Assembly (NCBI GenBank): GCA_030017895.1 | Contig: JASEGV010000028.1 | Location: forward strand, 1 to 36,729 | Direction: 5' to 3' | Origin: Bacteroidota bacterium | Lineage (GTDB): Bacteria > Bacteroidota > Ignavibacteria > UBA10030 > BY39 | DNA length: 36,729 bases | In this document: piece by piece, positions 17,279 to 23,063 of the stretch | How positions within the stretch are numbered: position 1 is the stretch's first letter | Layout of the letters: each line of letters opens with the position of its first letter | Notes under the pieces: model-generated | Databases searched by the model: none | What the model was told of the DNA's origin: nothing | The model's input: only the letters and a program-made list of their open reading frames with translations | Made by a program: the position numbers and the translations under genes

Positions 17279-17680
17279 GTGAATAATAATTTCAAAAAAC
17301 AGATAGAATATTGGTTAAGAGCCGGTGAGAGCGTTTTTGAAACAGCCAAAGGAATCCTAAAAACCGGAAAGAATCTTCACTATTGTTTGTTCTTCTGTCA
17401 TCTAACGATCGAAAAGCATTTGAAAGCCCTTATTGCAAAGACTACCCACTAGATGCCTCCACGATCTCATGATATTGAATTTCTATTAGAAAAAACAGGT
17501 TTAAAATTGAAAATAAAAGACTTAGACTTTCTGACCGAAATGAACGGATTTAACTTAGAGACACGTTATCCCGACGAAAAATTTGAAATCTACAAGAAAG
17601 CAACCATTACACTAACAAGAAAATATTTTAAAAGGACAGAAGAGTTTACATCATGGCTTCGAAACAAAATGACGCGATAA
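17279..17680 (+). pseudogene. HEPN-domain toxin-like protein with in-frame amber stop
   Basis: Reading from GTG at 17279 gives 134 codons in one frame, interrupted only by TAG at 17450-17452 (codon 58). Before the stop: IEYWLRAGESVFETAKGILK, then HYCLFFCHLTIEKHLKALI; after it: MPPRSHDIEFLLEKTGLKL and TRKYFKRTEEFTSWL. Together this is a full HEPN domain of the COG1895 type, all-helical, usually paired with a MNT nucleotidyltransferase. The stop falls in the linker before the conserved P-R-[ST]-H segment, exactly where homologues read straight through. A CAG-to-TAG change is enough. Re-initiation at the ATG right after the stop (17453) would give only the second half. Confidence 0.78.
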
Positions 17681-17970
17681 CGATTGCAAAAAAATATATC
17701 CGATTTTTGCAAAAAAATCATATCAAAGTAGAGCGTGCTTATCTTTATGGTTCGTTTGCAAACGGAAAGGCACATAAGGACAGCGACATAGATATAGTGG
17801 TTGTATCAGAACAATTTACACACTCGCGCTACGATGATAGCGTGCGCATCGCCAAACTCCGGAGAAGCATCGACTTGCGTATCTCGCCGCTCGCATACAA
17901 TCCCAATGATTTTATAAAAGAAAACCTCATACCATACGAAACAATTACGAATGGTATTCGTATTGCATAG
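17653..17970 (+). CDS. MNT-type minimal nucleotidyltransferase (HEPN partner, antitoxin-like)
   Basis: 105 residues with the nucleotidyltransferase core AYLYGSFANGKAHKDSDIDIVVV: the GS pair at 33-34 and the metal-binding aspartates D45 and D47 (GSx10DxD). This is the COG1708/MNT family; in characterised HEPN-MNT pairs it neutralises the HEPN RNase by adding AMP residues to it. The ATG lies inside the end of the HEPN gene (28-base overlap), so the two form one operon. The gene is intact although its partner carries a stop. Natural end at TAG. Confidence 0.85.
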   Translation: MASKQNDAITIAKKYIRFLQKNHIKVERAYLYGSFANGKAHKDSDIDIVVVSEQFTHSRYDDSVRIAKLRRSIDLRISPLAYNPNDFIKENLIPYETITNGIRIA

Positions 17971-18204: not shown

Positions 18205-18390
18205 ATGAATATCGTCCAAGAACTCGAAAAAATTGAATCAGAGATTCACAACTTGAAAGTGAAGATAAAAGCCCAACCTAAGCCGATAAAATTAGAGGGC
18301 ATTTGGAAGGGATTAGAGATTACTGAGGAAGATATCGAGAATGCTAAAAAATCTCTCTTTAAGGTTGCTCACGAATTTGAGAATGAGTGA
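18205..18390 (+). CDS. VapB-like antitoxin of a PIN-domain module
   Basis: 61 residues. The N-terminal half is a short coiled coil (VQELEKIESEIHNLKVKIKA); the C-terminal half IKLEGIWKGLEITEEDIENAKKSLFK is the recurring toxin-binding tail of antitoxins that precede PIN-domain toxins. It is preceded by GAAGGAAG. Its TGA overlaps the ATG of the next gene by one base (TGATG), the usual antitoxin-toxin coupling. The antitoxin is intact while its toxin is deleted. Confidence 0.7.
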   Translation: MNIVQELEKIESEIHNLKVKIKAQPKPIKLEGIWKGLEITEEDIENAKKSLFKVAHEFENE

Positions 18391-18563
18391 TGGAACGATA
18401 CACTCTCGATACTCATATACATCTGTCGAAGCTGAAAACTCTTCAAGCTATTCCCGAGCTTCACGACAGAATCATTGAGGCAACAGCGTCATTAACTTCA
18501 AGTACACTTATCACTAAAGACCGATCGATTATATCTTCTGGTCTTGTTAAAACAATCTGGTAA
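18390..18563 (+). pseudogene. PIN-domain toxin (VapC-like) with internal deletion
   Basis: 57 codons in frame. The start MERYTLDTH is the first strand of a PIN domain with its first metal-binding Asp (D7). It jumps straight to KTLQAIPELHDRIIEATA and LITKDRSIISSGLVKTIW, the last third of the domain, including the later acidic residues. A normal PIN toxin has about 125-140 residues, so some 65-80 residues in the middle, including the conserved Glu of helix 3, are missing. The deletion keeps the frame. The product should be inactive as an RNase. Too short to be noticed as a long open frame. Confidence 0.78.
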
Positions 18564-18584: not shown

Positions 18585-18791
18585 ATGTCAACAGTTTCAA
18601 TAAATTTAACAGAAGAACAACTTTCGAAGGTTATCGAGGCATACCGGACAATTCAAGAATTTCTCGCAACGATGCTTTCTCCGAACGAATTATACCATTC
18701 TGAATTCATCGGGGGGCTGAAGGAGTCGGAAAGAGAAGTTAACTCCGGCAAAACAAAAGCAGTAAACTCTTTCGATGATTTCATCTCCTGA
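18585..18791 (+). CDS. Antitoxin of a RelE-type module
   Basis: 68 residues: SINLTEEQLSKVIEAYRTIQEFLATML at the start (helical), and a charged tail ending AVNSFDDFIS. The family is not one I can name with certainty; position, size and a 17-base overlap with a RelE-like toxin gene make an antitoxin likely. AAAGGATTAAC precedes the ATG. It directly follows the broken VapC gene with a 21-base gap. Confidence 0.6.
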   Translation: MSTVSINLTEEQLSKVIEAYRTIQEFLATMLSPNELYHSEFIGGLKESEREVNSGKTKAVNSFDDFIS

Positions 18792-19059
18792 GCGATCTTT
18801 AATACGCACCAATCGTTTTGCGCGTGATCTTAAAAAAGTTCCGGATGGAATAAAACAGGAAGCTTATCGGATAGCGACATCAATTACACAGAATATATTT
18901 GCTGTCGAACTTGATGTTCGCCCTCTCACTGGATTCAAGGGTTATTACCGTGTCATCGTTTCCCAGGATTTTCGTATGGTTTTTTCTTTTGATGATAAAT
19001 GTATTTACCTGCACCGAATTGCGCATCGAAAAGATATTTACCGGAATTTAGAATTATAG
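18775..19059 (+). CDS. RelE/ParE-superfamily toxin
   Basis: 94 residues. The core LIRTNRFARDLKKVPDGIKQ, followed by DVRPLTGFKGYYRVIVSQDFRMVFSFDDKCIYLHRIAHRKDIYR, is the RelE fold: helix pair, then L-G-YR-R-G-YR-like strands and the end R-I-HRKDIYR. RelE-type toxins cut mRNA on the ribosome; ParE-type ones hit gyrase, and the sequence does not settle which. It is intact, unlike the two toxins upstream. Start ATG inside the antitoxin gene. Confidence 0.78.
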   Translation: MISSPERSLIRTNRFARDLKKVPDGIKQEAYRIATSITQNIFAVELDVRPLTGFKGYYRVIVSQDFRMVFSFDDKCIYLHRIAHRKDIYRNLEL

Positions 19060-19153: not shown

Positions 19154-20182
19154 TCAGTGTTTCACCATCGTCGGTTCTTTTTGCCATTCTTTGCCATTCC
19201 AGTAACGTACGCCGTTTTTCAAATTTTCAAGGTATGTTTGATCGAACGTGCCGTGAAGTTTACCTTGACTTACAAAATCCTGGCGCAACCGCAATGTCTC
19301 ACTATCATATTTAACTTCAATTATTTTTAAATTATCGTCGAAGATATATTCAAAAGTTGGATTACCCCCCGTTCCTATTCCTCCGGCTCCATACGTTCCA
19401 CGAACCCACAATGTATTTGTTTTTACATTATTTATTTCAGTTGCTTTGATACCACCAACATAAGCATGCGTATTCCAAATAATATTCATATCGGAAAGCG
19501 GAAAGCGGATAACATACGTCTCGGCAGGAGATAGGGGTTGTCCGAATCCGCGCGATTCACTCGCTTCTGTTTTTCCGACAATCTTGGACGGATCAAGCAC
19601 ACACATTACTGCATAGCTGAGAGAATCCGGTTCACCTACATCATTTTGACCAATAAACACAATTTTGCGTCCCTCCCTCATCTGAATTGATGTAATTAAA
19701 CCATAACCAAAATGGAAATATTGACCAAGTATCGTCCCATCTTTTGAGAGTCGGTTAATAATGTTAGGTGAACGCCCGCTGTTCGCAACGACAAATATTT
19801 CTTTCTCACCGCTTCCCTGAAAATCATCGCAAAGGAAACTTGCACAGCCTAATCTACTATCTTATTTTGTTTCGCGGAATTGGATATTTTCATTAAACGA
19901 AATCTCCTTGATAAGTTTTCCTTCTGATGAAAAAATTGTCAATGGGATAGTTGATTCAGATTTTTCACCAAGTGGAAAGATTGTGAGAACATCATTTTTT
20001 TTATCACCATCAACATCAGCGATAACTATTCTGTGTTCGCTTCTTTCAAATTCTTTTGGTGTCAGCTTGTAAATACTTTTTGATGGTCGATTTAACAAAT
20101 CGATTTACATAAGACTCATCTCATTCATATCGTCGTGCAGAATAATGGTTGATATTTGTTTAATCTGTTCATTAATTGGCAC
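19154..20182 (-). pseudogene. FG-GAP/VCBS-like repeat protein, two in-frame stops and a likely deletion
   Basis: One frame runs from GTG 20182, which overlaps the upstream gene by 11 bases, to the stop at 19154. It is broken by TAA at 20105-20107 and TAA at 19862-19864. Between and after the stops the protein sense continues: EHRIVIADVDGDKKNDVLTI, FLCDDFQGSGEKEIFVVANSG, INRLSKDGTILGQYFHFGYG, then RKIVFIGQNDVGEPDSLSY. The DVDGDKKND and DDFQGSGEKE units are calcium-binding-like FG-GAP/VCBS blades. The first 25 codons (INEQIKQISTIILHDDMNEM) look like the head of a different, anti-sigma-like domain, so a middle part has probably been lost. Function unknown; encoded with the gene at 20172-21207. 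Confidence 0.7.
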
Positions 20183-21207
20183 TTATATTTTCTTTTAAAA
20201 GCTTCACCGCATCTTTTTTAGCTTGCTTTAATAAATATTCCAAAATATTTCGATGTTCTTTTTTATATTCGATATCCGTTAGAACCGGTATATGGTTTTT
20301 TAGCAATTCATAAAGTGATGTGTCTTCACCATCCATTCCTATGAATTTTTCTATCAGCACTTCTTCAATTACACGGAAGTAAGATTCAAATATATTTGAG
20401 GTAATTTTTCCTTTACCAACATACTTCGGGGAATTATTTTTTTCAACATCACGGCATGATTTTTTAATTAACACTGCCGCATCTGTTTTTAAAAATGTGT
20501 CATCAAACGTAGCATCTTCGGAGACTACTTCATTAGTTGTATATACATCTCGAAATATTTATCCCCACAGTAACTAACGGAATTATGCGGCAGCGATCAG
20601 TTTGCTCTCGTAGAATAAGGGAAAACTTAGCAAGGAGATCAGGGATGTGTTCACGCCCGTTCACTTCGCACATAAAAAACCCGCGGAGTTCATCACGGTC
20701 AAATGCAGGATTATCCTCGAGTGTATCACAGGCACAAGGTGCGATGCAGGACTCGCCAAAACGTTCAACCTCGGTGAAATTTTTAAGCGTGTTTATAGCA
20801 ATTTTGATATTGCGAAGAATTTTTGAAAGCGATGGATCGATCTCGCTGTACTGACGATAGATACCGTGGTTTACTTTTGAGAAAACAAGTCGGCGGAGGT
20901 GTGAGAGAATTTCCTCATCGCGAGAAGTTGTGATAGACAATCCGGTAAAGTATGCTTTTAATTAGATACAGTTACCATCAGAATCTTGTTGGAATAACTC
21001 GGCAATGCAATCGTATGCAAGGTCGGAGGTGGTAAGACCGGATACCATACTCAAGGTTCCAGTCGTAGTTTTGCTTGCAATGAATGAATTAGCAAGCGAG
21101 TGCAAAACTTTGATGAGCCGGTTCAATTGTTCACGTGAACACTCGTTGCCAAGTATGGCAATAATTATCTCACGTAATCCTATGGAAAGTTTTGTGTAGT
21201 TGAACAT
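20172..21207 (-). pseudogene. Unrecognised regulator-like protein, one stop and one frameshift
   Basis: Three fragments read as one gene of about 345 residues. From ATG 21207 the frame runs to TAA at 20962-20964 and continues in the same frame (LKAYFTGLSITTSRDEEILS...) to about 20550, where a 2-base loss in a GA run (20548-20553) shifts the frame; it resumes as RDVYTTNEVVSEDATFDDTF and ends at 20172. The N-terminal part is helical (LTTSDLAYDCIAELFQQDSDGN) and weakly recalls sigma-factor region 2; the C-terminal part is charged and helical. I cannot name the family. It overlaps the next gene (19154-20182), suggesting a two-gene cassette such as a sigma-like factor with a membrane or surface partner. 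Confidence 0.65.
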
Positions 21208-21251: not shown

Positions 21252-23063
21252 TTATACAATTGGAAATTTATCTCTTGCCATTTCCTGCTCTTTATACTGT
21301 AACTGATAAAGCTTGTGGTATATTCCGCCCAACGACAGCAGTTGCTGATGTGTGCCCATCTCACGTATTTCTCCTTTATGCAGAACGATGATTTTGTCTG
21401 CTCGCTGTATTGTCGATAAACGATGAGCAATAACTATTGATGTCCTCCCCTTCAAAAGTTTTTGTATAGCTTTTTGAATAAGCTGCTCGGACTCGGTATC
21501 AATGCTCGATGTAGCTTCATCTAAAATTAAAATTTTAGGATTGAAAGCTAACGCCCTTGCGAAAGATATAAGCTGCTTTTGTCCGACAGAAAGTGTTGCA
21601 CCTCGCTCTTTCACTTCCTCGCTATAGCGGTTGGGAAGTGTATCAATAAAATTATTCAAACCCACTACTCTTGCAGCAGCTTTGACACGGTCAATTTTTA
21701 TTTTTTCATTTCCTAAATTGATGTTTGATTTTATATCGCCCGAAAACAAAAACACATCCTGATGAACAACTCCAATTTGCTGCCGCAATTGATATTGATT
21801 GATGTCGTTAATATCCACATCATCAATCAAGATGGTCCCTTTTTGCACGTCGTAAAACTTTGTAAGGAGGTTGATGATCGTAGTTTTTCCAGCGCCTGTA
21901 TGTCCGACGATAGCAACAGTTTCGCCTGAATTAATTTTGAAAGAAACATTTTTCAAAATCCATTCCGAATTTTCAGAGCCGTCTTCGTGATGGTCATAAG
22001 AGAAACTAACATTCCGAAATTCGATTTCGCCGCGGATTGAAGTAAGTGAAGCTGCATCTTGCCTTGTTATAATCGATGGCTTTTCATCAAGAAGTTTGAA
22101 GATTCTTTCGGACGAAGCCATAGCCGTTTGCATAATATTATATTTTTCAGATAAGTCGCGAATCGGGCGCCAAAACATTTCATTGAATTGGAAAAAAGCC
22201 ATAACCGTTCCGATAGTTACAGTCCCCGTTAAAGCTTCGACACCTGAATACCAAATAATTAAACCAATCGCGATAGCCCCAATTAACTCGACGCTTGGAT
22301 AAAAAACAGCGTAATAGAAAATTGATTTGATGTTAGCATCCCTGTGTGAAGCATTTATGTCGATAAATTTTTCGTGAGAAACTTTTTCGCGATTGAAAAT
22401 TTGATCAACAATCATTCCTGTGATGTGTTCCTGCATAAAGGTATTGATGCGGGCAACTTGTAAACGGACTTCACGATAACTCTCGCGCGCCTTCCGCCGG
22501 AATAAGAATGTTGCATAAAACAATATCGGCAACACACTCAAAGAAACTAAGGCGAGTTGCCAGTTCATTTGGAACATAAAGTATAAAATGCCAATGATAG
22601 TAAAGACATCGGTAAATACCATAACTACTCCCGACGAGAACATTTCGTTCAAAACTTCAACATCGTTTGTAACACGGGTTATAAGTCTGCCAATTGGATT
22701 TTTATCGAAGAATTTGATGTTGAGGCGCTGCAAGTGTTCAAAAATCTGCATTCGTAAATCGAAAATAGTCCGCTGACCAATCCACTGTGTAAGATAGGCG
22801 CTGAAGTATTGAACTACTCCACGCACAACTAACACAGCAAAAAACAACAATGCAGTTAGAAGTAAACCGTGTTTATCATTGTTGGCTATGTTTACGTCGA
22901 CAGCAATTTTAGTGAAGTATGGTCGGACTGCTTCCATTCCTGAAACTAACATACTCAACAAAATTCCGAGCGCAACATACCAGCGGTATGGTTTCAACGA
23001 CTTTAAAAGTCGCTTCATCAATCGAGCATCATAAGCTTTGCCGAGTACTTCCTCTTCGTGCAT
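21252..23063 (-). CDS. ABC exporter half, catalytic Walker B subunit (MdlB/MsbA-like)
   Basis: 603 residues: six transmembrane helices (about 25-320), then the ATPase domain. Seen: Walker A GHTGAGKTT, signature LSVGQKQ (canonical LSGGQ altered), Walker B ILILDEATSSIDTESE with the catalytic Glu, and the switch His in IAHRLS. It pairs with the next gene upstream, which has the opposite combination (normal signature, Asp in place of Glu), as in heterodimeric exporters such as TM287/288, BmrCD and MdlAB. Substrates for this family are drugs, lipids or peptides; nothing here decides. 98 bases separate the two genes, AT-rich without a gene. Confidence 0.92.
   Translation of the reverse strand: MHEEEVLGKAYDARLMKRLLKSLKPYRWYVALGILLSMLVSGMEAVRPYFTKIAVDVNIANNDKHGLLLTALLFFAVLVVRGVVQYFSAYLTQWIGQRTIFDLRMQIFEHLQRLNIKFFDKNPIGRLITRVTNDVEVLNEMFSSGVVMVFTDVFTIIGILYFMFQMNWQLALVSLSVLPILFYATFLFRRKARESYREVRLQVARINTFMQEHITGMIVDQIFNREKVSHEKFIDINASHRDANIKSIFYYAVFYPSVELIGAIAIGLIIWYSGVEALTGTVTIGTVMAFFQFNEMFWRPIRDLSEKYNIMQTAMASSERIFKLLDEKPSIITRQDAASLTSIRGEIEFRNVSFSYDHHEDGSENSEWILKNVSFKINSGETVAIVGHTGAGKTTIINLLTKFYDVQKGTILIDDVDINDINQYQLRQQIGVVHQDVFLFSGDIKSNINLGNEKIKIDRVKAAARVVGLNNFIDTLPNRYSEEVKERGATLSVGQKQLISFARALAFNPKILILDEATSSIDTESEQLIQKAIQKLLKGRTSIVIAHRLSTIQRADKIIVLHKGEIREMGTHQQLLSLGGIYHKLYQLQYKEQEMARDKFPIV

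Follow-up and report, generated by a model that had tools for sequence, protein, structure and literature searches.

The decayed gene pair at positions 19154-21207 (minus strand) of the window, the whole 36,729-nucleotide stretch of DNA analysed here, is a broken copy of a two-gene module, and, as judged from gene order and co-divergence, this module is real, widespread, coupled, and intact in many related bacteria. The first gene, here called A, encodes an orphan protein, and the second, B, encodes in its intact form a membrane protein with an anti-sigma-type inner end and an FG-GAP-like outer end. On balance, the locus is best read as recent pseudogenes of a module that signals from membrane to cytoplasm, in which B would hold A, an output regulator belonging to no recognised family. 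The intact module appears undescribed, as open-access literature searches found no account of it.

Within the window, the minus-strand pair is flanked by an ABC transporter gene (21252-23063) and by toxin-antitoxin-like genes of the opposite strand. Gene A (20172-21207, minus strand) starts at 21207, ends with a terminal stop at 20174-20172, and corresponds to a helical-looking orphan protein of ~340 aa. Its reading frame is interrupted by a TAA at 20964-20962 and shifts between about 20558 and 20524, in agreement with the original prediction of one stop and one frame change in this gene. A profile of intact A proteins matches the window in two pieces that follow each other in order, with 20524-21198 corresponding to profile positions 5-229 and 20187-20558 to positions 219-343. 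Both pieces are also covered by tblastn using the A protein of the related locus L066 as query. The closest match to the A of the window shows 65% identity over 212 residues (E 6.8e-89).

Behind gene A, part of the A-B spacer survives (20087-20171, minus strand) and contains the stop at 20107-20105; the segment 20129-20083 shares 76.6% identity with the spacer between A and B in L067 (alignment A8). This stop had been taken as a lesion of B and the surrounding letters as its anti-sigma-like helix; both prove to lie in spacer DNA, though intact B proteins do begin with an anti-sigma-type domain. At a junction at 20083-20087 (minus strand), ~528 bp are gone (in L067 coordinates, judged against the alignment of intact B, A2), and with them the end of the spacer, the B start codon, the zinc-type anti-sigma domain, and the membrane helix. 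The copy of B that is left (19154-20086, minus strand) is therefore truncated as well as decayed, and lacks the N-terminal domain typical of class I anti-sigma factors because of the deletion. It comprises the FG-GAP-like outer domain only, with an in-frame stop at 19864-19862 and a terminal stop at 19156-19154. Homology to B begins at 20086, equivalent to residue 162 of B in L065 and L067, and continues through the predicted stop at 19864-19862; homologues can be traced across the joins in both genes. The best match to this part of B shows 54% identity over 312 residues (E 9.8e-101), while the window copy on its own matches FG-GAP_3 at E 0.056, below the cut-off. By these alignments, the homology to A and B at the locus is more than chance would be expected to give. 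The idea that the whole pair can be read through its stops thus holds for A and fails for B, of which the inner part is missing. Likewise, the overlap of the two genes, first thought to be original, is only apparent and arises because ~528 bp were lost; in relatives, A and B usually do not overlap and are separated by, for example, 132 nt in L066 and 188 nt in L067. L065, an Ignavibacteriales metagenome-assembled genome, is a relative that also holds remains of A and B, and an ORF that looks by eye like a DUF559-type endonuclease (L065:419-793, plus strand) lies within the spacer between them.

Intact A is ~340 aa long (alignment A1, 35 sequences) and intact B ~480 aa (alignment A2, 29 sequences). 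Examples of intact A genes are L066:7784-8806 (minus strand) and the own-genome paralogue L126:7920-8942 (plus strand). With the window proteins as queries against the sets of relatives (own genome counted), A was found in 54/100 genomes and B in 52/100, and a profile search found A in 140/391 genomes of the class and 53/395 of the phylum sample. Gene order was counted for A genes of 300-510 aa, which make up 108 of the 115 listed. The next gene is B at 60 of these loci, a gene of 216-345 aa followed by a B-profile gene at 23, and another same-strand gene of 150-350 aa at 17; the order is otherwise at seven, and the contig ends at one. The two genes are thus neighbours, as anticipated, without being always adjacent. 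Gene calling found A in 12 of 14 additional stretches (the two others being L264 and L274, the latter 1 kb long); the next gene is positive for the zinc motif or the B profile in 11/12, and B stands second in the twelfth. In addition, the distances among A proteins and among B proteins correlate over the 57 pairs whose B is 430-600 aa (r 0.665; best of 1000 permutations 0.128). This correlation, read from protein distances, shows joint descent rather than contact, and would in part be expected for any co-inherited genes.

Intact B proteins begin with an Hx3Cx2C domain, mostly have a single membrane helix, and end in an FG-GAP/propeller-like domain. The Hx3Cx2C motif occurs near the start in 57/57 paired B, each with an extra His/Cys 25-28 residues upstream. 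According to excerpts of a survey of class I anti-sigma factors (ASDIs), Hx3Cx2C in the N-terminal domain is their zinc signature, and ~65% of them are membrane-bound (PMC7406223). Profile matches agree in kind but are weak, with zf-HC2 in 23/29 intact B (up to E 1; best E 0.0015) and the NCBIfam antisigma family NF052375 in 8/29 (best 1.2e-5), and the PDB matches, RsiW (0.018) and 3hug_B (0.4), are weak as well; these zinc-domain matches sit near or under the curated cut-offs. By a hydropathy rule, most B have a hydrophobic helix at around residue 105. The FG-GAP-like repeats predicted for the second gene are borne out in the outer domain, where FG-GAP_3 is found in 21/29 intact B (best 3.5e-10), and in L126, a paralogue in the window's own genome, B exceeds the curated cut-off at 28.7 bits. 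Intact B does not stand beside an ECF sigma factor, which is where ASDIs are expected. When about nine neighbours were examined for each of the 108 A genes, ECF HMM matches were found within 10 called genes of A in four cases and never closer than five. Since ECF genes are rare near the module and never closer than this, A is the sole constant candidate partner of B.

Searches of Pfam, NCBIfam, and PDB gave protein A no family match of any weight. Its gene occupies the slot next to an anti-sigma-type protein that usually belongs to a sigma factor, and the original prediction had noted a weak resemblance to sigma factors. A true but extremely diverged sigma factor, with a sigma2-like N-terminal half, would make the pair an undetected ECF/anti-sigma group, a reading that fits this position and that we nonetheless consider unlikely. 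The best N-terminal alignment is indeed collinear with sigma2 (A columns 24-84 on 9-59), but at a probability of only 1.1% it is not significant against shuffled columns. A profile of 105 A sequences, used both full-length and as separate halves, was compared by hhalign with 33 ECF/sigma proteins drawn from the same genomes and from related ones; the probability was 0.5-2.2%, compared with 96.2% for the sigma70-type against ECF positive control; the A profile finds no sigma factor, whereas sigma70-type and ECF profiles find each other. The A-versus-ECF score of 14.9 falls within the range of 60 shuffled-column controls (mean 11.1, maximum 19.0), so a resemblance of A to sigma region 2 is not supported by its sequence, and identity of A as a sigma factor was set aside. 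Furthermore, no sigma chain appears among the PDB matches of A up to E 10, the ECF HMM matches none of the A genes, and A has no recognisable sigma2 or sigma4 region. A search for a promoter motif upstream of 103 A genes gave a best z of 6.4, not clear of the shuffles (null maxima 5.1-5.7), and a single-sequence structure model of the A part of the window alone was uninformative (pLDDT 36.7).

A single fusion was seen: at L203:4005-5507 (plus strand), a response-regulator receiver (PF00072, E 2.9e-24) precedes A within the same gene. Together with gene order beside an anti-sigma-type protein, this fusion points to a regulatory output for A, and since no family matches A, a transcriptional role for it is argued from these two features. 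It is also conceivable, if rather improbable, that A is another cytoplasmic effector, such as an enzyme or scaffold under receptor control, and not a regulator of transcription. No DNA-binding family matches A, and the faint similarities that exist are to TPR-like helices, namely a kinesin light chain (E 0.047) and, for the A consensus, TPR_7 (0.16), both set aside as weak. However, it is typically regulatory outputs that are paired with an anti-sigma-type domain or fused to a receiver, and a weak ROS_MUCR match on the A consensus (0.0011) points away from an effector, though it is itself unreliable and was likewise set aside. Other weak matches of A that were discarded are EF_TS (A part 2), SIR2-like, and 2im9.

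It is proposed here, for the favoured reading of a membrane-to-cytoplasm signalling module, that B would reside in the inner membrane and bind A through its anti-sigma-like domain. Binding of a ligand at the outer domain of B would cause A to be released or reshaped, after which A would act in the cytoplasm, most likely on transcription. A may then be a sigma-like factor diverged past recognition or another regulator that occupies the sigma slot.

A three-gene form of the module also occurs, at more distant loci: behind A come a soluble, anti-sigma-like protein, mostly 250-280 aa long, and a receptor of 700-800 aa, here called B2. The soluble proteins keep the zinc motif in some cases and lack the cysteines in others. 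On its inner side, B2 shows similarity to Lon proteolytic domains (PDB 1z0e, E 1.3e-10), and a Ser and a Lys are invariant in 28/28 aligned B2 at the Lon Ser/Lys positions of 1z0e, which gives the dyad of the S16 family; these two residues we take to be catalytic. Alignment A6 holds 28 of the 31 B2-sized proteins, omitting L071 (a tandem propeller), L176, and one of the two from L209, and alignment A7 omits L192, which is outside the family, from 22. The outer part of B2 is FG-GAP-like, with FG-GAP_3 in 13/28 at E 0.01. One example, L125:1206-3449 (minus strand), has the predicted layout of a transmembrane protein whose Lon-like Ser-Lys domain lies in the cytoplasm and whose FG-GAP propeller lies outside. 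In the two receptors of another family of the class that were scanned, the outer part is instead Laminin_G_3 (L123:2137-5220, minus strand, E 4.6e-20; L271:814-3903, minus strand, E 4.5e-17); the Lon-like look of their inner part is a judgement by eye, with Pfam Lon_C unmatched at E 0.1. At more distant loci, A is followed by a protein of 174-183 aa without the zinc motif. Exchange of the outer domain while A is retained is what would be expected of sensors for different ligands.

A bolder and more tentative proposal takes A as the founder of an unrecognised class of transcription regulators that are held in check by anti-sigma-type domains. The one-receptor form would then consist of anti-sigma domain, membrane helix, and propeller, and in the three-gene form the receptor protease would destroy a soluble anti-A protein on ligand binding. 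A single receptor-protease, with its Lon-like Ser-Lys domain in the cytoplasm, would thereby replace the usual cascade of intramembrane cleavage.

The copy in the window is non-functional, since B has lost the portion that would inhibit A and span the membrane, and A itself is interrupted. Differences between A part 1 and the A of L066 fall mainly on third codon positions (0.56, compared with 0.28 at first and 0.19 at second positions), and the same is found against orthologues of 62-65% protein identity (0.56-0.61 compared with 0.27-0.28 and 0.18-0.19 at positions 1 and 2). Such an excess of third-position differences is expected for genes that were coding until recently. By this measure, the window holds a real and fairly recent case of decay, an ordinary pseudogene pair; together with adjacency and the distance correlation, this upholds the view of a coupled, recently decayed pair that is absent from the family libraries searched. 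The lesions are most improbably assembly or sequencing errors in an intact pair: single stops and one frameshift could arise as errors, and the draft-genome A orthologues L067 and L068 also carry single stops, but a deletion of ~0.5 kb that takes away the start codon, zinc domain, and membrane helix of B while keeping the spacer at its edge is no base-calling error, and the lesions differ between relatives.

L067 and L068, which belong to two other genera of the order, are the closest orthologues, and the stops in their A genes lie at other positions than in the window. The window's own genome has three further A genes: C38 holds an intact A-B pair, C62 the three-gene form, and C79 an A truncated by the end of its contig. 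These are only 25-36% identical to the A of the window; in another genome of the same genus, the best match is 37% identical. Since A proteins of its own genus are only 25-37% identical to it, the window copy is placed in a lineage whose other members seen here come from a different family (G040, G032, and G024). This placement would fit horizontal transfer or repeated loss. Origin as a mobile element was rejected, as searches of phage and plasmid collections found no A and none was confirmed in viral contigs.

The spacer of close relatives contains two hairpins between A and B (L067:1286-1337, plus strand; joint folding z -5.10). The window retains a weak hairpin 1, left from this conserved spacer element (20087-20103, minus strand; folding z -1.64, the version in relatives being stronger), and has lost hairpin 2. 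In eight genomes searched, hairpin 1 at 0-1 mismatch was found only between A and B (window, G032, and G040), and three looser matches elsewhere appear at 2 mismatches. Hairpin 2, searched in six genomes with up to 2 mismatches, was found at the locus in G024, G032, and G040 and at two looser sites in G001. Origin of the hairpins as a repeat element was rejected, as they occur almost only at the A-B locus in the genomes searched. A role as operator or transcript element is possible.

Several other genes adjoin the pair on the plus strand. Window positions 17279-17967 hold a HEPN gene split by a stop in its own frame (17450-17452) and, behind it, a nucleotidyltransferase (NTP_transf_2, E 1.7e-12); by these matches this is a decayed HEPN-MNT-type pair adjoining the decayed cassette. 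At 18205-18563 are two short ORFs, by eye resembling an antitoxin and part of a PIN-type toxin, for which Pfam gave no match. A small DUF2683-like gene (E 2.5e-4, below cut-off) overlaps a ParE-type toxin gene (E 5.4e-5) at 18585-19056, and the two apparently form an intact toxin-antitoxin pair convergent with gene B.

The copy in the window matters only as a pointer to the module and as an example of its loss. If the proposed signalling role of the intact module is true, sigma factors would not be the only regulators under the control of anti-sigma-type receptors, which would govern a second class as well, and the Lon-like receptor would convert an outside signal into inside proteolysis in an unusually direct way. 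As excerpted, the ASDI survey gathered its proteins only near ECF sigma genes (PMC7406223), so partners of the A type would lie outside its search. Surveys that seek such receptors only beside ECF genes would, on the same condition, miss A-type partners.

Among known systems, the two-gene form resembles SigW-RsiW, in which an ECF sigma factor is paired with a membrane-bound ASDI: a regulator gene is followed by that of a membrane protein with Hx3Cx2C, one membrane helix, and an extracytoplasmic C-terminal domain. However, A is not a recognisable sigma factor, and the outer domain of B is FG-GAP-like. B shares FG-GAP-like repeats in its outer domain with FG-GAP/VCBS repeat proteins and differs from them in that the repeats are joined via a membrane helix to an anti-sigma-type domain. 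The likeness to Lon (S16) belongs to the three-gene form and not to the two-gene form of the window. There, the inner part of B2 matches the proteolytic domain with its Ser and Lys invariant, whereas a Lon-type AAA+ match is not seen in B2 and the domain precedes a membrane helix and an outer propeller. PhyR-type proteins are sigma-mimic response regulators with a C-terminal receiver. The A of L203 is, in this one case, similarly a receiver-fused regulator paired with an anti-sigma-type protein, though its receiver is N-terminal and the profile comparison found no sigma likeness in A.
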